A DNA stretch of 58,247 nucleotides from Longispora albida DSM 44784. GTDB lineage: Bacteria > Actinomycetota > Actinomycetes > Mycobacteriales > Micromonosporaceae. Positions within the stretch are counted from its first letter, which is position 1; the number at the start of each line of letters is the position of its first letter. The stretch lies in NCBI RefSeq assembly GCF_000379825.1, contig NZ_KB903823.1, positions 204-58,450 of the forward strand, in the 5' to 3' direction. Below the pieces are notes generated by a model, which did not search any database, was not told where the DNA came from, and was given only the letters and a program-made list of their open reading frames with translations. The translations under genes were made by a program, and so were the position numbers. Shown piece after piece: positions 39,814 through 52,145 of this stretch.

Positions 39814-41016
39814 ATGGCCGTACGTGCCGGGCTGATCAGCAGAGAGTACCCGCCGGAGATCTACGGCGGGCTCGGCACGTATCTCGCCCACCTCGTCCCG
39901 CAGCTGCGGTCCTACGCCGAGGTCGAGGTGCACTGCTTCGGCGCGCCCCGCCCGGCCGCCCGCTCGTATCCGGAGCCCCGTGAGCTGGCCTCGGCCAACC
40001 CGGCCCTGCGCGCGCTGGCGACCGACGTGCTGATCGCGGCGGAGCTCGGCGGCCTGGACCTGGTGCACAGTCACGGCTGGTACGTGAACCTGGCCGGCCA
40101 CCTCGCCAAGCTCCTGCACGGCCTGCCGCACGTGATCACCGCCCACACGCTGGAGACCCACCGGCCGTGGAAGCGGGACCAGCTCGGTGGCGGGTACGAG
40201 GTCAGTTCCTGGATCGAGCGGGTCGCCTACGAGGCGGCGGACGCGGTGATCGCCGTGAGCGCGGCCATGCGTGCCGACGTGCTGGCGGCCTACCCCGGCG
40301 TCGACCCCGCCCGGGTCCACATCGCACGCCCCGGCGTCGACACCTCCCTCTTCTACCCGGACCACGACCCTGCGGAACTGCTGCACTGGGGCATCGACCC
40401 CGGCCGGCCGATCGTGCTGTACATCGGCCGCAACACCCCGCAGAAGGGCCTGGGCAGCCTGCTGGCGGCCGCCCACCTGCTCGACAGCTCCGCGCAGCTC
40501 GTCGTGTGCAGCTGGGCACCGGACACGCCGGAGCTGGGCGCGTGGATCGGCCCGGCGGTCGGGCGGGCAGGCGGGCTGCTCATCGGGCAGCCGATCCCGC
40601 AGCAGCTCGTCCGCCAGCTGCTCAGCCAGGCGGCTGTCGTGGTCTGCCCCTCCGTCTACGAACCCCTCGGCATGGTCAACCTCGAGGCGATGGCCTGCGG
40701 CACGCCGGTCGTCGCGGCCCGGGTCGGCGGCATCCCCGAGGTCGTGGCGCACGGCCGCACCGGCCTGCTCATCGACCAGGGCCGGTCCTTCCCGGCCCGC
40801 CTGGCCGAGGCGGTCAACGGGCTCCTGGCCGACCCGGCCGAGGCCGAGCGGATGGGCCAGGCCGGCCGTCAGCGCGCCGAGCGCGAGTTCAGCTGGGCGG
40901 GCACGGCCGCCAGAACCCTCGCCACCTACCGCGCCGCCTGCATCGCCCGCGAACCAGCCGCCGGCCAGCCCGGCTCCCTCTGGGGCCCGCCGAAGGACGC
41001 TGGCGCCCTCTCCTAG
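39814..41016 (+). CDS. glgA: Glycogen synthase / alpha-1,4-glucan transferase, GT4 (actinobacterial GlgA/GlgM type)
   Basis: A 400-residue GT-B enzyme of family GT4. The N-terminal domain shows SREYPPEIYGGLGTYLAHL (nucleotide-sugar binding glycine region), LVHSHGWY and HVITAHTLETHRPWKRDQLGGGYEVSSW. The C-terminal domain has LYIGRNTPQKG and the retaining motif VCPSVYEPLGMVNLEAMACGTPVV. In actinobacteria this type makes maltose-1-phosphate or glycogen from ADP-glucose. The usual partner glgC is not adjacent. There is no ribosome site; a promoter with TACGGT 6 bases before the ATG predicts a leaderless message. Linkage to the downstream surface-sugar operon is only positional. Confidence 0.88.
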   Translation: MAVRAGLISREYPPEIYGGLGTYLAHLVPQLRSYAEVEVHCFGAPRPAARSYPEPRELASANPALRALATDVLIAAELGGLDLVHSHGWYVNLAGHLAKLLHGLPHVITAHTLETHRPWKRDQLGGGYEVSSWIERVAYEAADAVIAVSAAMRADVLAAYPGVDPARVHIARPGVDTSLFYPDHDPAELLHWGIDPGRPIVLYIGRNTPQKGLGSLLAAAHLLDSSAQLVVCSWAPDTPELGAWIGPAVGRAGGLLIGQPIPQQLVRQLLSQAAVVVCPSVYEPLGMVNLEAMACGTPVVAARVGGIPEVVAHGRTGLLIDQGRSFPARLAEAVNGLLADPAEAERMGQAGRQRAEREFSWAGTAARTLATYRAACIAREPAAGQPGSLWGPPKDAGALS

Positions 41017-41171: not shown

Positions 41172-42293
41172 GTGGGCGTTTTGAGGAGCACGGCAGGTGC
41201 GGCGGTCTTCGTGCTGGGTACCCGGCCGGAGATCATCAAGCTCGCGCCCCTCGCGGAGTCACTCGGGGAACTGGCGGTCGTCGTCGACACCGGCCAGCAC
41301 TACGACCCGATGATGAGCGGGGCCATCTACGCGGAGTGCGGCCTGCCCGCGCCGCAGGTACGCCTGGCCGTCGGCGGGCTGCCCAGGTCCGCGCAGGTCG
41401 GGCAGGGGCTGGCCGATCTGGGTGCGCTGTTCGCCCGTGCCGTACCCGCCGTGGTGGTCGTCCAGGGCGACACCAACTCCGGGCTGGCCGGTGCCCTGGC
41501 GGCCAACGCGTGCGGAGTGCCCCTCGTCCACGTCGAGGCCGGCCTGCGCAGCCACGACCGCAGGATGCCCGAGGAGAACAACCGGGTACTGATCGACCAC
41601 CTCGCTGACCTGCTGTGCGCGCCGACGCCGGGCAACGCGGGCAACCTGCGCGCCGAGGGCATCGCCGGCCACCGGGTCGCACTGACCGGCAACACCGTGG
41701 TCGAGGCGGTGCTCCGGCACCTGCCAGAGCCGGAGGATCGCCGGAAACTGCTGGCACACCACGGGGTGCGGGCTGGTGAGTTCGTCCTCGCGACAGTGCA
41801 CCGGCAGGAGAACACCGACGACGCCGCAGCGCTCCGCGAGGTCCTGAGCGGACTGAGCCGGTGTGCCGGGCGCGGATACCCTGTCATCCTGCCGCTGCAC
41901 CCCCGGACACTCGCCGCCGTGACAAGCCTCGGCTGCGGGGACCTGCTGGGCGGGCTGCTCGTCACCGGCCCGCTCGGGTACTCCGACTTCCTGGGCCTGG
42001 CAGCCGAAGCCGCACTCCTGGTCTCCGACTCTGGCGGACTCCAGGAGGAGTGCACTGTGCTCAAACGGCCGATGGTGGCGGTCCGCACCTCGACGGAACG
42101 GCCGGAGAGCCTGGACGGTTTCGTACGGCTCGTACCACCGGGCGCTGGCCTCCACCGTGAGATCGACGGCTTCCTGGCGGACGTCGCCGGGTGCCACGCC
42201 CGGCTCGCCGCACTGCACTCCCCGTACGGGCACGGAGCCGCAAGCCAGAGAATCGCCGGCCTCATCCAGGAGCGCTTCCTGGTTCACAGCTAG
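41172..42293 (+). CDS. wecB: UDP-N-acetylglucosamine 2-epimerase (non-hydrolysing)
   Basis: A 373-residue GT-B-fold epimerase that interconverts UDP-GlcNAc and UDP-ManNAc. Visible family motifs: FVLGTRPEIIKLAPL at the N-terminus, DTGQHYD, VVQGDTNS, HVEAGLRSHDRRMPEENNR, LATVHRQEN and VSDSGGLQEECTVLKRPMV near the end. The start is a GTG (41172). UDP-ManNAc feeds teichoic acid linkage units and surface polysaccharides. It is the first gene of an operon of at least six, with 15 bases to the next ribosome site region. This suggests that the following sortase-like and glycosyltransferase proteins act on a ManNAc- or ManNAcA-containing surface glycan (inference). Confidence 0.93.
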   Translation: MGVLRSTAGAAVFVLGTRPEIIKLAPLAESLGELAVVVDTGQHYDPMMSGAIYAECGLPAPQVRLAVGGLPRSAQVGQGLADLGALFARAVPAVVVVQGDTNSGLAGALAANACGVPLVHVEAGLRSHDRRMPEENNRVLIDHLADLLCAPTPGNAGNLRAEGIAGHRVALTGNTVVEAVLRHLPEPEDRRKLLAHHGVRAGEFVLATVHRQENTDDAAALREVLSGLSRCAGRGYPVILPLHPRTLAAVTSLGCGDLLGGLLVTGPLGYSDFLGLAAEAALLVSDSGGLQEECTVLKRPMVAVRTSTERPESLDGFVRLVPPGAGLHREIDGFLADVAGCHARLAALHSPYGHGAASQRIAGLIQERFLVHS

Positions 42294-42308
42294 CCCTGGG
42301 GAGATCAC

Positions 42309-42455
42309 ATGTACGGGAATCCGTTCGTCAGCCTGCCGGTCACCGGCCTGGCCAGCATCAGCATCGCCTTCGTCGCACTCGGGCTGATCTTCGCCGGCCT
42401 GCTGCTCTTCCGGCTCGGCCGTACCCGCCGCGCGGCGAACGGCGGCCGTGACTAG
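42309..42455 (+). CDS. 48-residue microprotein: LPxTG sorting signal with transmembrane helix and basic tail
   Basis: A short gene with a strong ribosome site (GGGGAG, 42298-42303). The product starts MYGNPFVS, then LPVTG at residues 9-13, a hydrophobic helix (about 14-35) and the basic tail LGRTRRAANGGRD. That is exactly the tripartite C-terminal signal of sortase or exosortase substrates, but with only eight residues in front of it and no signal peptide. Its stop overlaps the GTG of the exosortase-like gene by 8 bases, so the two are translationally coupled. It could be a minimal substrate, a membrane cofactor or an inhibitor of the transpeptidase. I know of no described family; its length excludes an ordinary wall protein. 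Confidence 0.75.
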   Translation: MYGNPFVSLPVTGLASISIAFVALGLIFAGLLLFRLGRTRRAANGGRD

Positions 42456-42996
42456 GTCCGGGCGGGTCGCCGAGTCCGCCAGGAGCCTGGCAGGGGCCTC
42501 GGTGATCGCCGGTGCCGTGCTGCTGGCCGCCAGCGGGATGCGGTTCCGGGGCTGGGAGGTCTCCGCTACCGGCTGGCTGATGGCGAACCTGTTCCCGCTC
42601 ACCGCCGTGCGCGCCCCGGGGCACCCGGACGTGCTGCATTTCCAGCCGGCGTCCGGCCCCTGGTACGCGATCCAGATCACGGCAGCGTGCACCGCGGCGG
42701 TGCTGGTCGTGCCGCTGCTGGTGGTCATGGGCCTGCTGCTGTGCACCCGGAGGTTCCCGGCCTCGCGCATCCTGCTCGCCGGAGGCCTCGCCGCGGTGGT
42801 CGTCACCGTGGTCAACCTCGGCAGGGTGATGGGCATCGCCGCCGCACTCGCCTACGGCGACCAGTCGGCCTTCGAGGTGGCGCACGTCATCTGCGGCACG
42901 CTGGCCACCATCGTCGGCGGGATACTCGCGGCGGTCGTCTTCGTCCGGGTGCTGCTCGGTTCGCGGGGACGCGGCAGGATGGCGGCCGCCGTATGA
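42448..42996 (+). CDS. Exosortase/archaeosortase-like membrane transpeptidase
   Basis: A 182-residue protein with about five membrane segments. It carries the three residues that define exosortases, in order and in membrane-proximal contexts: Cys81 in ITAACTAAV, Arg126 in VVNLGRVMGI (family pattern N-x-x-R) and His146 in FEVAHVICG. Exosortases recognise a short C-terminal motif followed by a helix and basic tail, cut the protein and attach it to a glycan or lipid. The coupled LPVTG microprotein upstream and the processive glycosyltransferase downstream fit such a role; the layout recalls the exosortase-G/glycosyltransferase pairing of other Gram-positives. It starts with GTG and overlaps both neighbours. 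A generic small membrane protein is the alternative. Confidence 0.72.
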   Translation: MTRSGRVAESARSLAGASVIAGAVLLAASGMRFRGWEVSATGWLMANLFPLTAVRAPGHPDVLHFQPASGPWYAIQITAACTAAVLVVPLLVVMGLLLCTRRFPASRILLAGGLAAVVVTVVNLGRVMGIAAALAYGDQSAFEVAHVICGTLATIVGGILAAVVFVRVLLGSRGRGRMAAAV

Positions 42997-44405
42997 CCAC
43001 TGTGGTGCTGATGGCGGCGATGAGCACGGTCATCTGGCTGTCCAACGGCTACTTCTTCACCATGCTCACCCTCGGCATCCGCTTCATGCGCCAGCGGGGA
43101 GCGAAACTGGGCGACCAGGCCAGGCTCGGTTACGGCCAGCCCCATCTCGGCCGCGACGACGACCTCTTCTACTACTTCCTCGTACCGTGCCTGAACGAGG
43201 AGAAGGTGATCGCGGCGACCGTCACCCGGCTGCTGGGCCATCCCGCCAGCCATGTCGTGGTCATCGACGACGGCTCTGACGACGCCACCGGCTCCCAGGC
43301 CCGTGTCGCGGGCGCGGACGAGGTGACGGTGCTCCGCCGGAACCTGCCGGACGCCCGCCAGGGCAAGGGCGAGGCACTGAACGACGGGCTCGCTGCCGTA
43401 CGGCGGATGGTGGCCAGCGGGCAGCAGGATCCGGAGAAGGTCGTCGTCTGCGTGATGGACGCCGACGGCCACCTGTCCGACGGCGCGGTCCGGCACGTGT
43501 CCGCAGCGCTCGCCGAGCCGGAGGTCGGCGCAGTGCAGCTGTCCGTGCGCATCCGCAACCGGGACCGGTACCTCACCAGGATCCAGGACTTCTACTTCTG
43601 GGCCATCGCCGCGGTCACCCAGTTCGGGCGCTCGGCGACCGGGACGGTGAGCCTGGGCGGGAACGGCCAGTTCACCCGGCTCACCGCGCTGAACATGATC
43701 GGGGAACGGCCGTGGAGCCGGTGCCTCACCGAGGACCTGGACCTGACCATCAGCATGGTGATCGACGGCTGGCGCCTGACGACCACCCCGCACGCCGCGG
43801 TGGCCCAGCAGGCCGTCGACCGGCTGCCGGCCCTCGTCCGGCAGCGCACCCGCTGGTACCAGGGCCACATGGCCTGCGGGAAGCGGCTGCCCGAGATCTG
43901 GGGCTCCTCGCGGCTCAGTCACCGGCAGGCCACGGAGCTGTCCCTCTACCTGCTGGTGCCGTGGGTACTCGACCTGCCGTGGTCGATCCTGTGGCACTTC
44001 GCGATGATCGGCTTCGTCCTGCACGCTCCGGACTACTTCGTCACCGGCTCGGGCCCGCTCGTCTTCGGCCTCAGCGTCGCGACCTGGTACGCGTTCAGTT
44101 TCGGTCCGGCGATCGCCGCCGCGTACATGCAGAAGAAGCGCTCTCCCGGCACGGGCTGGCTCCAGGCGCTCCTGATCGGCCACTCGTTCATCGTCATGAA
44201 CTACGTGTTCTTCGTCTGCGTGTGGCGTGCCTTCGCCGCCCTCGTCGCGGGCAAGCCGTCCACCTGGGCGAAGACCGCCCGGGTGTTCGAGAGCGGTGCC
44301 GCGCCAGCGAGCAGGATCCCGGCCCCGGCGCGGCGTGCGGGCGGCAGGCACCGGCGGACGGAGCCAGCGCGGGTCCACGGGTCCCGGCAGCGCGGGGAGG
44401 CCTGA
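42993..44405 (+). CDS. Processive family-2 membrane glycosyltransferase
   Basis: A 470-residue enzyme: an N-terminal helix, a GT2 domain with VVIDDGSDD (about residues 89-97), DADGHLSD (about 156), EDLDLTISMVIDGW and the QxxRW-type motif RQRTRWYQGH (about 284), then four C-terminal membrane helices and a basic, Arg-rich tail. These are the features of cellulose/hyaluronan-synthase-like processive enzymes that polymerise and extrude a glycan through the membrane. The start overlaps the exosortase-like stop (ATGA). The sugar is unknown; UDP-GlcNAc or UDP-ManNAc are suggested by wecB in the same operon. A frame running further upstream is antisense-free but lies inside the exosortase gene, so I did not use it. 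Confidence 0.88.
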   Translation: MTTVVLMAAMSTVIWLSNGYFFTMLTLGIRFMRQRGAKLGDQARLGYGQPHLGRDDDLFYYFLVPCLNEEKVIAATVTRLLGHPASHVVVIDDGSDDATGSQARVAGADEVTVLRRNLPDARQGKGEALNDGLAAVRRMVASGQQDPEKVVVCVMDADGHLSDGAVRHVSAALAEPEVGAVQLSVRIRNRDRYLTRIQDFYFWAIAAVTQFGRSATGTVSLGGNGQFTRLTALNMIGERPWSRCLTEDLDLTISMVIDGWRLTTTPHAAVAQQAVDRLPALVRQRTRWYQGHMACGKRLPEIWGSSRLSHRQATELSLYLLVPWVLDLPWSILWHFAMIGFVLHAPDYFVTGSGPLVFGLSVATWYAFSFGPAIAAAYMQKKRSPGTGWLQALLIGHSFIVMNYVFFVCVWRAFAALVAGKPSTWAKTARVFESGAAPASRIPAPARRAGGRHRRTEPARVHGSRQRGEA

Positions 44406-44408
44406 GCG

Positions 44409-46742
44409 ATGGGACTTCTCCTGCTGCTGACGAGTACCGCGATCATCGCCACCGCCGCGTGGCGGTTCGCCCGGCGGCTACGGGTACGCGGCCGGATCGA
44501 GCAGCTGGTGGCGGCGCTCGTGCTGTCCTCGGCCGGCGTGCTCGGGCTCACGCTGCTGACCGGGGGAGTGCTGCGCTCCTACGACCGGGCGGGGATGGCG
44601 CTCGGCGCCCTGGCCATCGGCGGGCTGGAGCTGTGGTGGACCCGGCGGAGCCCGCTGCCAGCCCGGTCCGGTACCCCCGTGCGGTCGTGGCTCACCGGCC
44701 GGACCGGCTGGGAATGGGCACAGTGGACGGCCGCCGGCGCGCTGCTGGTCCTGGTCTGCGGCCAGTACGCCTGGCGAGTCCTCCTGGCGGTCACGCTGCC
44801 ACCGACCGACTGGGACGGACTCCAGCGGCACCTGGTCGGCCCCGCAGTGTGGATCCAGGCCGGCAGGCTCACCCACAGCCCGCAGAGCGAGTGGGCCGAC
44901 AGCCTGCCGCTCACGGTCGAGTCCTTCGGCGGGTGGACCGGCGTCTTCCTGCACACGATGCGTTACGCCCCGCTGGCCCAGCTCCCGCTGTACCTGCTCG
45001 CCGGGCTGTCGGTGGCAGGCCTCGCCCGGAGGGCCGGAGCCGGCCGGGCGGCCGCGCTGCTCGCCGGACTCGTCCTCCTCGCGTCGCCAGCGGTGTTCGC
45101 CCAGGCCGGAACGAGCTATGTGGACGTTTCCGCCACGGCCTTCGCCCTCGCTGCCCTGTACCTCGTCACCGGCCTGGGGTCAGCCTGGCAGCCGGGCGAG
45201 CCGGGCCTCCGGGTCGTCGCGGCCTACGCCTGCCTGACCGGGGTGGCAGCCGGGCTGGCCGCCGGGTCCAGGATGGACAGTCTTCTGCTGGTGCCGGTGC
45301 TGGCCGCCGTGCTGTTCGTCGTCACGATCCGGCGGCACAACGCGGGCCACGTGTCCGGGGAGCACGCCGGGCTCCGGACCAGGAAAGCCCGCCGGCTCAG
45401 CCGCTCGGCTCTGCGACCGGCGGCCCTGGCACTGGCCGGGCTCGCCGTGCCGGTGCTGCTGCTCGGATCCTTCTGGTACCTGCGGGCCTGGGCCACCCAC
45501 GGCAACCCCTTCCACCCGTTCACCGTGGCGGGCTTTCCCGGCCGTGGCGCGGTCGCCGATCTGCTCGCCGGGGCTTCGGTGACGGCGGAGCTGGGAACCG
45601 ACCCGATCGGCAGGGTGGCGCGCTCCTGGCTGGCGGACCTGAGCCCGCAGGCCGCGCGGTACGACATGCGGTCCGGCGGATTCGGCGTGGCCTGGCTCGT
45701 GGTCGTTTTGCCTGCGGCCCTCGCGGCCCTGGCCGCGTCCCGGCGCCGTCTCGCGGGCCCGGTGCCACTGCTCGGTGCCGTGGCGCTGCTCGCCCTCGTG
45801 GTCAGCCCCGCGCCCTGGTGGGCCCGCTACACCCTCCTGCCGCTCGCGATCGGTTCGGCGCTCGCGGCGGCGAGCATCACCCGCTGGAACGCCGGGAACC
45901 TGCGGATCCTGGCGGCCGGCACGACCGCAGCCCTCGTAGCCCTCACCTCGGTCTCGATGTGGTGGGCGAGCAGCTCGACCCCCATCTGCGCCGCGGAACG
46001 GTGTCCGGCCGGCACGCTGCTGACCCCGCACGGTGCGGTCGCGCTGCTGTCCCAGCCCGACCGGCACCAGCGACTGTGGCCGTGGAACCAGTACCGGATC
46101 CTCGGCGCTCTCCCTCGTGGCTCGGTGATCGCCGTGCCGAAGGTCCCCAGCACCCCCTTCCCGCTCGCGGTCATGGGCGAGCGGCTCGAACGGAAGATGG
46201 TCGCCGTCGAGGCGCCGGACTCCGCAGACCGGCTCGCGGACGTCCTCGACCGGCAGCACGCCAGCCATGTCCTGCTCGACCCGGCCGTGCACGGTTCGCT
46301 GGCCAGGGCTGTCGCGCGGGATCCCAGGTTCGCGCTGCGTTCCGCGCCGTCCGAGCGAGTGTTCGGTTCCGACCTGTTCGCCTACGGCCCCCAGGCCACC
46401 GGCTGCCCGGAGCCGCTACCCGCCACGCTCACGGCCGGCCTGGCCGGGACCGCCGGTGAGGCCTCCGGGCTGCGGGTGTCCGTGATGGACGGCTGTGGCC
46501 GGCCGATGCGCGCCGAGGTGCGGCTCTACGCCGGCGACCCGGCCAAGGCCCTCTGGCAGGACGACGTGGCCCTCGCGGAGCACTCCTCGGACGCGGGCGG
46601 CACGGTCACCTTCGCACTGCCAGCGCGCGCCCGGCCGTGGCGCTACTTCGCCAGCGTCCAGGCGACCGAGTACCACGACGCGCTGGCCAGCGCGACCGTG
46701 ATCGTCCCGCCGGCCGCCACAGCGGAGCCTGCTGGGGACTGA
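44409..46742 (+). CDS. Polytopic membrane protein, GT-C-like (dolichyl-phosphate-mannose mannosyltransferase type)
   Basis: A 777-residue protein with about 12 membrane segments in the first 530 residues and a soluble C-terminal region with a beta-rich end (VSVMDGCGRPMRAEVRLYAGD region). The first external loop holds LPPTDWDGLQRHLVGPAVW, an Asp-containing loop like that of GT-C lipid-linked-sugar transferases, and a second (AGTSYVDVSATAFALAALY) is typical of the same class. It starts 3 bases after the glycosyltransferase stop, so it is in the same operon. It probably transfers a polyprenyl-linked sugar to the polymer or to a protein outside the membrane; the acceptor is unknown. Confidence 0.8.
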   Translation: MGLLLLLTSTAIIATAAWRFARRLRVRGRIEQLVAALVLSSAGVLGLTLLTGGVLRSYDRAGMALGALAIGGLELWWTRRSPLPARSGTPVRSWLTGRTGWEWAQWTAAGALLVLVCGQYAWRVLLAVTLPPTDWDGLQRHLVGPAVWIQAGRLTHSPQSEWADSLPLTVESFGGWTGVFLHTMRYAPLAQLPLYLLAGLSVAGLARRAGAGRAAALLAGLVLLASPAVFAQAGTSYVDVSATAFALAALYLVTGLGSAWQPGEPGLRVVAAYACLTGVAAGLAAGSRMDSLLLVPVLAAVLFVVTIRRHNAGHVSGEHAGLRTRKARRLSRSALRPAALALAGLAVPVLLLGSFWYLRAWATHGNPFHPFTVAGFPGRGAVADLLAGASVTAELGTDPIGRVARSWLADLSPQAARYDMRSGGFGVAWLVVVLPAALAALAASRRRLAGPVPLLGAVALLALVVSPAPWWARYTLLPLAIGSALAAASITRWNAGNLRILAAGTTAALVALTSVSMWWASSSTPICAAERCPAGTLLTPHGAVALLSQPDRHQRLWPWNQYRILGALPRGSVIAVPKVPSTPFPLAVMGERLERKMVAVEAPDSADRLADVLDRQHASHVLLDPAVHGSLARAVARDPRFALRSAPSERVFGSDLFAYGPQATGCPEPLPATLTAGLAGTAGEASGLRVSVMDGCGRPMRAEVRLYAGDPAKALWQDDVALAEHSSDAGGTVTFALPARARPWRYFASVQATEYHDALASATVIVPPAATAEPAGD

Positions 46743-46776
46743 CCTGATGTCCGTACCAACCTGTGTGGAGGTAGCA

Positions 46777-47451
46777 GTGAGGAATTCGACCGCGAGGTGG
46801 CTGCGCACGTCAGTGCTGGCAGCCGCTGGCAGCATCGTCCTGCTGAGCGCGACGCCGGCCCTGGCGGCGACGATGACGTCCAAGGACGAGCCGGAGACCG
46901 TGACCATCGCGCCCGGGGCCACCGGCATCGTCCCGGTCACGATCCGCAACACCGGCACCACAGTCGTGGAGATCGACACATCGAAGCCGAGCAGCGTGGT
47001 GTTCACCGCTCCGGCGAACACGACGTTCCCGGCGCAGACGAGCGTGCCCGCCTACCAGGCGCCGACCGGGTTCCTCTGGAACACGGGCTCCCTGGCGCTG
47101 AACAACTGTGCCGTCAGCAACGCGGGCAAGACACTGACGTGCAAGCTCGACACGACTCCCACCAGCGGCGGCTACATGCAGTGGAAGGGCGATGTCGGCC
47201 GGCAGTTCAGGCCGCAGGTCACCGTCGACCCGTCGGCCCCGCCCTCGACGACGCTCTCCGCCGGGAGCATGAAGATGTCCTGGCAGGACACCAGCGGCGC
47301 AGCCTGGGAGACCGTCCCGGGCACCATGAACGTCAAGACCCCGGCGGTGAACGCCATCCCGATCGCCAACCTGGCGGTCGCCGTGCCGGTCCTCCTCGTC
47401 CTGGGCGCTGGCACCTATCTCGTCCGCCGGCGCGGAGCGCGGAAGGCCTAG
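46777..47451 (+). CDS. Secreted protein with C-terminal membrane anchor, candidate sorting substrate
   Basis: A 224-residue protein. I start it at the GTG 46777, with TGGAGG 5 bases upstream. An N-terminal signal peptide (RWLRTSVLAAAGSIVLLSATPALA) is followed by a beta-sandwich-like domain of about 150 residues with two cysteines (NNCAV, LTCKL). The end is NAIPIANLAVAVPVLLVLGAG, TYLV and the basic RRRGARKA, that is a short motif, helix and Arg-rich tail as in exosortase or sortase substrates, but without LPxTG. It is the last gene of the wecB operon and ends 4 bases into the convergent methyltransferase gene. The encoded protein may be the main cargo of the exosortase-like enzyme. Confidence 0.75.
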   Translation: MRNSTARWLRTSVLAAAGSIVLLSATPALAATMTSKDEPETVTIAPGATGIVPVTIRNTGTTVVEIDTSKPSSVVFTAPANTTFPAQTSVPAYQAPTGFLWNTGSLALNNCAVSNAGKTLTCKLDTTPTSGGYMQWKGDVGRQFRPQVTVDPSAPPSTTLSAGSMKMSWQDTSGAAWETVPGTMNVKTPAVNAIPIANLAVAVPVLLVLGAGTYLVRRRGARKA

Positions 47452-50342: not shown

Positions 50343-52145
50343 ATGACCGCAGCCGTGAAGCCCTTCTGCCTCTTCCACTCCGACGGGAAGACCTTCTACG
50401 CAGCCGGCGAGGTCAGCTACACCCGATGGCTCGCGCAGATGCCCCGCCCGGCGGGGACCGACGGCCGCCCCGTGATCAGCATGGTGCCCTACACCCAGCT
50501 CCGCGAGCGGGGCTTCGAGCTGCACGACGGCGACGAGCCGATCATCTCCATGATCGCCACGGAGTTCCGCGAGGTGGCCCTCGACGAGCTGCTGCCGGAG
50601 GGTGAGCCAGCCTTCGGCACCTCCGAGCTGGTGCTGGACGTCAGCGACGCCGAGTACGCGGAGATGGTCCGGAAGGTGATCGAGGAGGAGATCTGCCGGG
50701 GCGAGGGCTCCAACTTCCTCATCTCCCGCACCGGGCGGGCCACCATCAGCGGCTTCTCGCCGGAGGTCGCCCAGGTGATCTTCCGGCGGCTGGTCCGTAA
50801 CGAGCCTGACGCCTATCTCACCTTCTGCTTCCACGACGGCGAGCGCTACTTCGTCGGCTCCTCGCCGGAGCGGCACATCACGATCGAGCGTTCCGAGGTC
50901 ACGATGAACCCGATCAGCGGCACCCTGCGGAAGGCGGAGCTACACAAGCGGTCGGACCTGGTCGAGTTCCTCACCGACCCGAAGGAGGTCAACGAGCTCT
51001 TCCAGGTGGTCGACGAGGAACTCAAGATGATGTCCCGGATCTGCTCGGAGGGCGGGGTGGTCCGTGGCCCGTTCCTCAAGGAGATGAGCGCCCTGATCCA
51101 CACCGAGTACGTGCTGGTCGGCCACAGCCATCTCGACAAGGTCGACGCGTTCCGGGACTCGATGTTCGCGGCCACCATGATCGGCTCCCCGCTGGAGAAC
51201 GCCGCCCGGATCATCCGCAAGTACGAGCCGGCCAGCCGCCGCTACTACTCCTCGGCCATCGTCATCAACGGCCTCCGCCCGGACGGCGAGGAGTACCTGG
51301 ACAGCGCGATCACGATCCGGACGATGGAGGTCACACCGGACGGGCAGGCCCGGCTCCAGAGCGGCGGCAGCATCGTCCGCGACTCCGTACCGGAGAAGGA
51401 GACCAGGGAGGCCGAGGCCAAGATGGCCGGGCTGCTGCGCGCGATCACGTCGGGGGAGCTGGCGGAGCCGAAGCTGCCGCAGTACATGGACGCGCACATC
51501 GAGGAGCTGCTGACCTCGCGGAACAAGTACCTGTCCCGGTTCTGGATCGACGACCAGGAGGGCAGCCCGGTCCCGGTGCCCACCCCCGGCAAGTCGATCC
51601 TGGTCGTGGACAACGAGGACGAGTTCACGCACATGCTCGGCCACGTCCTGACCCACCTCGGTTTCGACGTGACCGTCAGCGACTACGACGATCCGGCGCT
51701 CGACCTGGACTCGGCGGACCTGGTGCTGGTCGGCCCCGGCCCCGGCGACTCGACCGATCTGTCCGACCCGAAGATGCGCAGGGTCCACGACATCGTGGGC
51801 AGGCTGCTGGCGAGCAGGACCCGGTTCCTGGCCGTGTGTCTCGGGCACCAGATGGTGTGCCACCATCTCGGCATGCAGATCGTCCCCGTCGACCCGCCGC
51901 TGCAGGGCGTGCAGAAGTCGATCGACCTGTTCGGGCGGCAGGAGGCGGTCGGCTTCTACAACACGTACTTCGCGCTCCGGCCGGAGGTCGCACCGGCCGG
52001 CGTGCGGATCGCCGCCGAACCGGACGGGCGGGTCATCGCCCTGCGCGGGGAGAACTTCTGCACCTTCCAGTTCCATGTGGAGTCGGTGCTGACCAGTAAC
52101 TGCGTAGCCATCCTGAAGGAAGCGCTCGATTGCCTCCAGCACTGA
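50343..52145 (+). CDS. PhzE-type fused aminodeoxyisochorismate/anthranilate synthase
   Basis: A 600-residue fusion. Residues about 90-400 form a chorismate-binding domain of the TrpE/PabB/PhzE fold (GEGSNFLISR, YFVGSSPERHI, MNPISGTLRK, MIGSPLENAARIIRKYE, YYSSAIVINGL). Residues about 415-600 are a class I glutamine amidotransferase with the triad Cys499 (AVCLGHQM), His578 and Glu580 (FQFHVES). The order and the GSPLENA motif match PhzE and related 2-amino-2-deoxyisochorismate synthases and fused anthranilate synthases, which aminate chorismate. It is followed, with a 16-base overlap, by a GntR regulator. No other phenazine genes are visible. The message is probably leaderless. The product could feed an aminoaromatic metabolite made elsewhere. 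Confidence 0.88.
   Translation: MTAAVKPFCLFHSDGKTFYAAGEVSYTRWLAQMPRPAGTDGRPVISMVPYTQLRERGFELHDGDEPIISMIATEFREVALDELLPEGEPAFGTSELVLDVSDAEYAEMVRKVIEEEICRGEGSNFLISRTGRATISGFSPEVAQVIFRRLVRNEPDAYLTFCFHDGERYFVGSSPERHITIERSEVTMNPISGTLRKAELHKRSDLVEFLTDPKEVNELFQVVDEELKMMSRICSEGGVVRGPFLKEMSALIHTEYVLVGHSHLDKVDAFRDSMFAATMIGSPLENAARIIRKYEPASRRYYSSAIVINGLRPDGEEYLDSAITIRTMEVTPDGQARLQSGGSIVRDSVPEKETREAEAKMAGLLRAITSGELAEPKLPQYMDAHIEELLTSRNKYLSRFWIDDQEGSPVPVPTPGKSILVVDNEDEFTHMLGHVLTHLGFDVTVSDYDDPALDLDSADLVLVGPGPGDSTDLSDPKMRRVHDIVGRLLASRTRFLAVCLGHQMVCHHLGMQIVPVDPPLQGVQKSIDLFGRQEAVGFYNTYFALRPEVAPAGVRIAAEPDGRVIALRGENFCTFQFHVESVLTSNCVAILKEALDCLQH

Follow-up and report, generated by a model that had tools for sequence, protein, structure and literature searches.

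Six open reading frames (ORFs) on the forward strand of a 58,247-nucleotide stretch of Longispora albida DSM 44784 DNA (hereafter the window, meaning the whole stretch analysed) form one apparent operon between positions 41172 and 47451. They encode WecB, a non-hydrolysing UDP-N-acetylglucosamine 2-epimerase expected to supply UDP-N-acetylmannosamine (UDP-ManNAc; 41172-42293); a 48-residue LPVTG microprotein (MYGNPFVS, LPVTG, helix and basic end; 42309-42455), with GGGGAG a few bases upstream; a 182-residue exosortase-family protein carrying Cys81, Arg126 and His146 (42448-42996); a processive family 2 glycosyltransferase (GT2) of the XrtP-associated type (42993-44405, start approximate); a 777-residue membrane protein with a probable glycosyltransferase C (GT-C) fold and a beta-rich C-terminal part (44409-46742); and a secreted protein with a signal peptide and a C-terminal IPIANL-helix-RRR tail, a candidate exosortase substrate (46777-47451). 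An initial annotation of this DNA had grouped these six ORFs as one operon, and all are present and tightly packed: they abut or overlap apart from small gaps of 15 bp 5' of the microprotein gene and at most 34 bp 5' of the last gene, the exosortase ORF overlaps the microprotein ORF by 8 bp, and the sequence at the GT2 start reads ATGA across the exosortase stop. The last gene has a GTG start behind GGAGG and an alternative in-frame ATG at 46747.

Profile searches and alignment identify the 182-residue protein as a real member of the exosortase family. It scored above background and above the cut-off of TIGR04178 (32.7 bits, cut-off 23; 34.5 bits in a whole-genome search, which found this single exosortase in Longispora albida) and under that of Pfam PF09721 (21.8 bits, cut-off 25.7), and its nearest named relatives were XrtS (69.4 bits, cut-off 145), XrtR (68.6 bits, cut-off 150) and XrtP (55.5 bits, cut-off 200), all under cut-off. 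Consistently with the initial annotation, the exosortase residues lie at the positions it had named and are conserved: among 40 aligned exosortases, Cys81 is retained in 39 and Arg126 and His146 in all 40. The sole exception is an exosortase-like protein without the catalytic Cys in the alignment (locus L071, 11609-12169). The AlphaFold model had a mean predicted local distance difference test (pLDDT) score of 95.1 and gave no match at E<=0.001 in PDB and BFVD.

An exosortase set in an actinomycete had been regarded as unusual, a view that our searches did not bear out. NCBIfam already models the same families and the same exosortase-GT2 pair as in the window (XrtP, NF012139; XrtR, NF012138; XrtS, NF033767; and NF053846, "XrtP-associated glycosyltransferase"); the window proteins score under all these curated cut-offs, and the names of the models, on which the comparison was made, mention no microprotein or GT-C protein. 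Queried with the window exosortase, the family yielded exosortases in 6 of 150 genomes, the order in 48 of 397 and the class (E<=1e-7) in 7 of 394, the own genome being counted each time; a profile built from the exosortase alignment matched 56 of the 249 genomes searched in the order (E<=1e-8, best 13 candidates per genome scored). Judged by these matches, exosortases are not rare in actinobacteria, and several have already been named.

The GT2 enzyme is nearest to NF053846 (286 bits, under the cut-off of 520) and matches PF13641 (109 bits). Processive GT2 enzymes are marked by DxD, TED and QxxRW motifs, and the corresponding residues D155/D157, T245-E246-D247 and Q283/R286/W287 were invariant in seven of seven sequences aligned (DAD, TED and QRTRW in the window GT2); a GT2 profile found no relative at 1e-10 among PDB sequences. 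A GT2 match lay within about 1.5 kb in all 40 loci fetched with the exosortase (L003-L042), mostly with a microprotein nearby, so that part of the proposed gene order recurs; the complement of WecB, GT-C-like and tailed secreted proteins differs between loci. WecB itself is well supported (TIGR00236, 251 bits, cut-off 210; PF02350, 273 bits), and it follows the GT2 rather than the exosortase: among 80 named loci retrieved by GT2 alignment alone, it occurred in 29 of the 40 with an exosortase and in 29 of the 40 without, which speaks against UDP-ManNAc supply as a part of the exosortase set, as had been supposed. At ten of the GT2 relatives without an exosortase (L060, L063-L066, L073, L077, L078, L104 and L107), the secreted proteins encoded close by, frequently in runs of several, share a C-terminal domain, and no sorting tail was seen at the ends shown.

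The 777-residue membrane protein had no notable family match in the NCBIfam and Pfam libraries scanned, and the 80 loci contain six relatives of it, each at an exosortase locus. A low-confidence model (pLDDT 65.4) gave Pmt4, AftD and ArnT as top Foldseek hits; 14 of the 15 best chains were Pmt, AftD, ArnT, oligosaccharyltransferase, PimE or ALG9, which we take to be members of the GT-C class, and only Pmt4 (7e-4) fell under 0.001. A sequence profile gave just two weak matches in PDB (E 0.21 and 0.58). On the strength of this model, a GT-C fold is probable.

The microprotein belongs to a family that was found by pattern search and then with a hidden Markov model (HMM) of 26 seeds, which detected a short microprotein ORF at most exosortase loci. 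Its members share a Met-Tyr start, a Gly-rich stretch, L[A/P]xTG, a single hydrophobic helix and a basic end. Of 61 distinct microproteins, 55 have Ala and 6 have Pro at position 2 of the motif, and 6-26 residues precede the motif with one outlier among 74; in an alignment of 39 members Tyr2, Gly13 and Gly30 were invariant and Leu33, in the helix, was conserved. The MY start of 59 of the 61 is partly by construction, since start codons ahead of Tyr were preferred and the HMM was seeded with sequences that open with MY (CTG is the start in two of the 59, and L079 was excluded for want of a start), and the TG ending, a requirement of the pattern, is no argument. Of 13 pairs of relatives submitted, 10 could be used, and in these the ratio of non-synonymous to synonymous substitution rates was 0.21-0.57 (L070/L074 was missing, and L059/L061 and L089/L096 were left out, their microprotein having been overwritten by a second hit). 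Because of this ratio and of a 61-member HMM family, we consider that the LPVTG microprotein is not a chance ORF. NCBIfam NF058583, "LAXTG motif-containing small protein", covers one branch of the family: the L017 member scored 89.7 bits (cut-off 65), seven other scanned members 17.6-42.8 bits, and the window microprotein gave no match at E<=1 in the NCBIfam scan. Compared by name, that model mentions no exosortase or GT2, and genes this short are readily filed as generic LPXTG proteins.

Three loci show the family in other arrangements. In a Frankiaceae metagenome-assembled genome (MAG), a microprotein is in frame with the N-terminus of an exosortase, no stop lying between them (L130, 6614-7312), and a MAFFT alignment of this fusion with both families aligned the microprotein helix with helix 1 of the exosortase. 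From position 4769 of L095 onward, a microprotein-like segment and a long Thr-rich insert continue in frame into a second secreted-protein-like sequence. A second exosortase block in Kutzneria (L298, 5605-10048) contains an exosortase, a GT2, WecB, a tailed protein and a microprotein.

The window microprotein has the motif, helix and basic tail of a sortase substrate (TIGR01167, 19.6 bits, above the cut-off of 15.9; PF00746, 14 bits, under 20), with no N-terminal signal peptide and just 8 residues ahead of the motif. A sortase (PF04203) was present in 39 of 40 genomes searched (the own genome, with five matches, 38 with a locus exosortase, and that of L103); absence of sortase was therefore discarded as a test, the single miss being a MAG and the genome of L089 falling outside the sample. 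We then compared the microproteins with the sorting tails of their hosts in 17 genomes (the own genome and 16 of the 39 others, with up to five stretches each). In the own genome, 17 of 28 matches besides the microprotein were legible; 12 of the 17 had Pro at position 2, and the commonest motif (6 of 17) was LPVTG, that of the microprotein. The majority residue at position 2 agreed between microprotein and host tails in 15 of the 17 genomes (6 of 6 with LP and 9 of 11 with LA microproteins; p 0.002). These counts come from 78 stretches of the 16 genomes, 13 of them without a legible motif; for L198, L199, L213, L232, L233 and L251 the tails were read again by eye, the Kutzneria stretch L216 was dropped when it proved to be the second microprotein of L298, the majorities are thin for Amycolatopsis (one tail) and Oerskovia (two), and TIGR01167, with which host tails were found, is biased to LP. 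Mapped on a tree, the LP/LA state shows 5 changes, and the host goes along with it in 2.6 of 3 supported pairs, which is not significant; we regard the agreement on the tree as suggestive.

The secreted protein at 46777-47451 had no family match above cut-off in NCBIfam and Pfam scans and no homologue, at the cut used, among the ORFs of the 80 loci. Kinship to the C-terminus of a Streptomyces NHL protein was considered and set aside, the profile giving 11 bits, which is too weak. A filter for signal-peptide proteins with a [V/I]P-helix-Arg end nearby selected 15 of 40 loci with an exosortase and 5 of 40 without; after reading by eye, about 14 of 40 and none were left (L074 is the exosortase itself, L088 is doubtful, the five exosortase-less hits resemble other membrane proteins, and L106 had been missed). 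Tails such as IPLVAP, IPIVAP, VPMIAP and VPILTP recur beside the exosortases and differ from the microprotein motif; IPIANL of the window fits them loosely. The motif-helix-Arg tail proposed at the outset thus recurs beside other actinobacterial exosortases, and the tailed protein is the likelier candidate substrate, exosortase and tailed protein making up the expected enzyme-substrate pair, with cleavage and attachment as the presumed outcome.

The initial annotation had counted the microprotein as another candidate exosortase substrate, and in this we depart from it. Since its motif agrees with host sorting tails in 15 of 17 genomes and is unlike that of the tailed proteins, and since the protein itself occurs in six genomes beside a GT2 with no exosortase nearby, the microprotein is better read, although this is not proven, as a probable sortase substrate with its N-terminus outside. 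In those six genomes (G251, G331 and G149 and, at weaker scores, G267, G321 and G146; loci L292, L293, L294, L295, L297 and L300) the microprotein adjoins a GT2, and the 8-19 kb of sequence covered showed no exosortase. Judged by GT2 profile, five of the six synthases are distant, and for the three of these that were scanned the nearest model is PgaC_IcaA, matched under cut-off; the sixth, at L295, belongs to the exosortase-associated type. The MY...LAxTG microproteins beside these distant GT2s (L292, 9023-10621; L293, 2490-4124; L294, 8552-10053; L297, 297-1712; L300, 9373-10627) possibly belong to a separate system.

The association between microprotein and exosortase is close when counted by locus. 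With microproteins counted at E<1e-5, the 80 GT2 loci comprised 34 with exosortase and microprotein, 6 with exosortase only, 1 with microprotein only (L103) and 39 with neither (Fisher p 5e-15); of the exosortase-only loci, L068 and L095 hold weaker microprotein matches, and in many loci the two genes overlap or are adjacent. On a 78-row GT2 tree the exosortase changes 6 times and the microprotein 10 times. We also searched the whole genomes of 22 of the 40 exosortase-less GT2 loci: 21 had no exosortase at E<=1e-8 and weak microprotein matches only (best 1.1e-7, from model position 17; in the genome of L105 a full-length but weak match at 8.1e-7), and in the remaining one, that of L103, with the only strong microprotein of the 22, an exosortase lay on another contig.

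A search was also started from the microprotein. Among 249 genomes of the order, 25 matched at E<=1.1e-10 and 22 of them had an exosortase (against 56 of 249 overall), this cut having been chosen after viewing the list and excluding the window microprotein's own match (1.5e-9); at 1.5e-9 the count was 25 of 31. At E<=1e-5 as many as 128 of the 249 matched, most of the weaker rows being listed in frames longer than 100 residues, as would be the case for sorting tails of longer proteins. The best 25 candidates per genome were scored here, and the 249 genomes of this search and of the exosortase search were taken as one draw. Within about 1.5 kb, the 30 loci fetched with the microprotein had an exosortase in 22, a GT2 in 12 and at least one of the two in 29, the exception (L290) being the tail of a 441-residue LPNTG protein.

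Taken together, these data allow us to propose, tentatively, that this operon is devoted to a polysaccharide, with the exosortase processing the tailed protein and a sortase-anchored microprotein tying the product to the wall. WecB would, by family, supply UDP-ManNAc; the GT2, whose family is established, would polymerise and export the polymer; and the GT-C-like protein, on the basis of its low-confidence fold, may decorate it from a lipid-linked sugar. The exosortase, given its family and the recurring tails, would cut the IP-helix-Arg tail of the 46777-47451 product and join the protein to an acceptor. The microprotein, a presumed N-outside single-pass peptide, would, judging by its motif and agreement with host tails, have its LPVTG read by the housekeeping sortase, a step that would leave a short MY-Gly-rich peptide on peptidoglycan. 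Its neighbours, a processive GT2 and usually an exosortase, lead us to suggest that the peptide fastens either the polymer or the tailed protein to the wall. The operon would thus make and anchor a surface polysaccharide, any link between protein and glycan being drawn from the gene neighbourhood. The initial combination of an exosortase-family protein, a processive GT2, a probable GT-C-like protein, WecB and a motif-helix-Arg secreted protein in one operon is upheld by the profiles, by Foldseek and by the recurring tails.

A more specific form of the proposal, which we think rather unlikely as it stands, is that MY...L[AP]xTG microproteins are two-ended linkers, the outer Met-Tyr end taking either the GT2 polysaccharide (for example at Tyr2) or the protein product of the exosortase (at its free amine), and sortase joining the other end to peptidoglycan. 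A linker between the two systems would explain both a motif that fits sortase better than an exosortase substrate and the close tracking of the exosortase and sometimes of the GT2. If true, it would amount to a sortase-made bond between polysaccharide and wall, or would identify what an actinobacterial exosortase uses as its acceptor.

A number of observations weigh against a sortase-anchored microprotein that serves the polysaccharide. Kinship thins the exosortase-microprotein link to 4 supported independent pairs, in which the microprotein follows in 2.4 and opposes in 0.1 on average, so that a sign test cannot reach 0.05. In the 22-genome control the microprotein goes with the exosortase genome-wide; ten Streptomyces/Kitasatospora, and also Actinomyces and Kocuria, have exosortase-type GT2 loci without a microprotein, and therefore that GT2 does not need it; and there is the in-frame fusion of L130. 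These three facts suit an exosortase partner at least as well. The agreement with host tails rests on 3-5 independent pairs and is broken by Jiangella and Leucobacter. Tailed proteins were detected at just about 14 of the 40 exosortase loci, while the filter used for them also fired at 5 of 40 exosortase-less ones. The six genomes with a microprotein beside a GT2 are absent from the 56 exosortase-positive ones, but with just 13 candidates scored per genome an exosortase elsewhere is possible. Finally, a microprotein-like ORF in L299 (9297-9455) lies beside a 242-residue ORF, with no GT2 or exosortase found within 11 kb.

Much of this evidence can be read another way: the microprotein may be the exosortase's own substrate, cut at LPVT-G, or an acceptor whose free N-terminus receives the tailed protein, the conjugate then being transferred to the wall by sortase. 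Its presence at 34 of 40 loci with an exosortase against 1 of 40 without, its absence from exosortase-less relatives of the same GT2, the genome-wide co-occurrence, the overlapping or adjacent genes and above all the L130 fusion, the best support for an acceptor relay, all argue for it; the motif, which agrees with host sortase substrates instead of staying constant, the different IP/VP motif of the secreted partners and the six microproteins beside a GT2 without an exosortase in the stretch (a genome-wide absence of the exosortase there being weakly tested) argue against it. As the genome-wide controls tie the microprotein closer to the exosortase and the 13-candidate scoring was shallow, we have slightly raised our estimate for this substrate or acceptor role, which we still hold to be somewhat unlikely, and slightly lowered that for our preferred reading of a sortase-anchored tie. 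The microprotein may also belong, as a small subunit in the membrane, to the complex of the GT2 or of the exosortase, with an L[AP]xTG that is incidental or structural. In keeping with this, the helix has an invariant Gly30 and a conserved Leu33, one microprotein is fused to the exosortase, and a GT2 or exosortase lies within about 1.5 kb in 29 of 30 microprotein-fetched loci; such a role nevertheless seems unlikely to us, and the LP/LA agreement between microproteins and host sortase substrates (15 of 17 genomes) speaks against it. Least probable, in our opinion, is an ordinary exopolysaccharide operon beside an ordinary exosortase, brought together by shared transfer and without joint function: WecB and the GT2 are equally common without an exosortase (29 of 40 each for WecB), which counts in its favour, but the genes overlap at the window locus, and exosortase, GT2 and microprotein recur together across many actinobacterial genera.

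Compared with described systems, the operon resembles the exosortase G system of Firmicutes, in which XrtG, a Firmicu-CTERM protein and two glycosyltransferases are clustered (PMC12854382), in combining one exosortase, one tailed protein and glycosyltransferases; unlike in the window, no LPXTG microprotein is mentioned in the part of that description available to us. No window protein matched XrtG or TIGR03111 at E<=1 in the NCBIfam scan. Class E sortases of actinobacteria are reported, in the accessible portion of PMC5148588, to use LAXTG, and the substrates described there share L[AP]xTG, a helix and a basic end with the microprotein; unlike them, the window microprotein has no signal peptide, has 8 residues before its motif and is encoded in an exosortase operon. 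In the available text of PMC11980579, exosortases are suspected to be transpeptidases that leave a new moiety on the cut end. Among the matches listed in a literature search that mostly did not cover subscription journals, no title dealt with the MY...L[AP]xTG microprotein or with actinobacterial exosortases. To our knowledge, the identity of the moiety on the exosortase-cut end in bacteria is still open; a gene of less than 150 bp between an exosortase, a polymer synthase and sortase, with a host-suited motif and conserved across many actinobacterial genera, can be deleted and tagged and so opens this question to direct experiment.

Two further genes of the window were noted. Upstream of WecB, a family 4 glycosyltransferase of the coryne-type glycogen synthase family (39814-41016; TIGR02149, 446 bits, cut-off 302) is probably not part of the operon, and downstream, positions 50343-52145 encode a 600-residue protein that we take to resemble a fused anthranilate-type synthase with a glutamine amidotransferase part.

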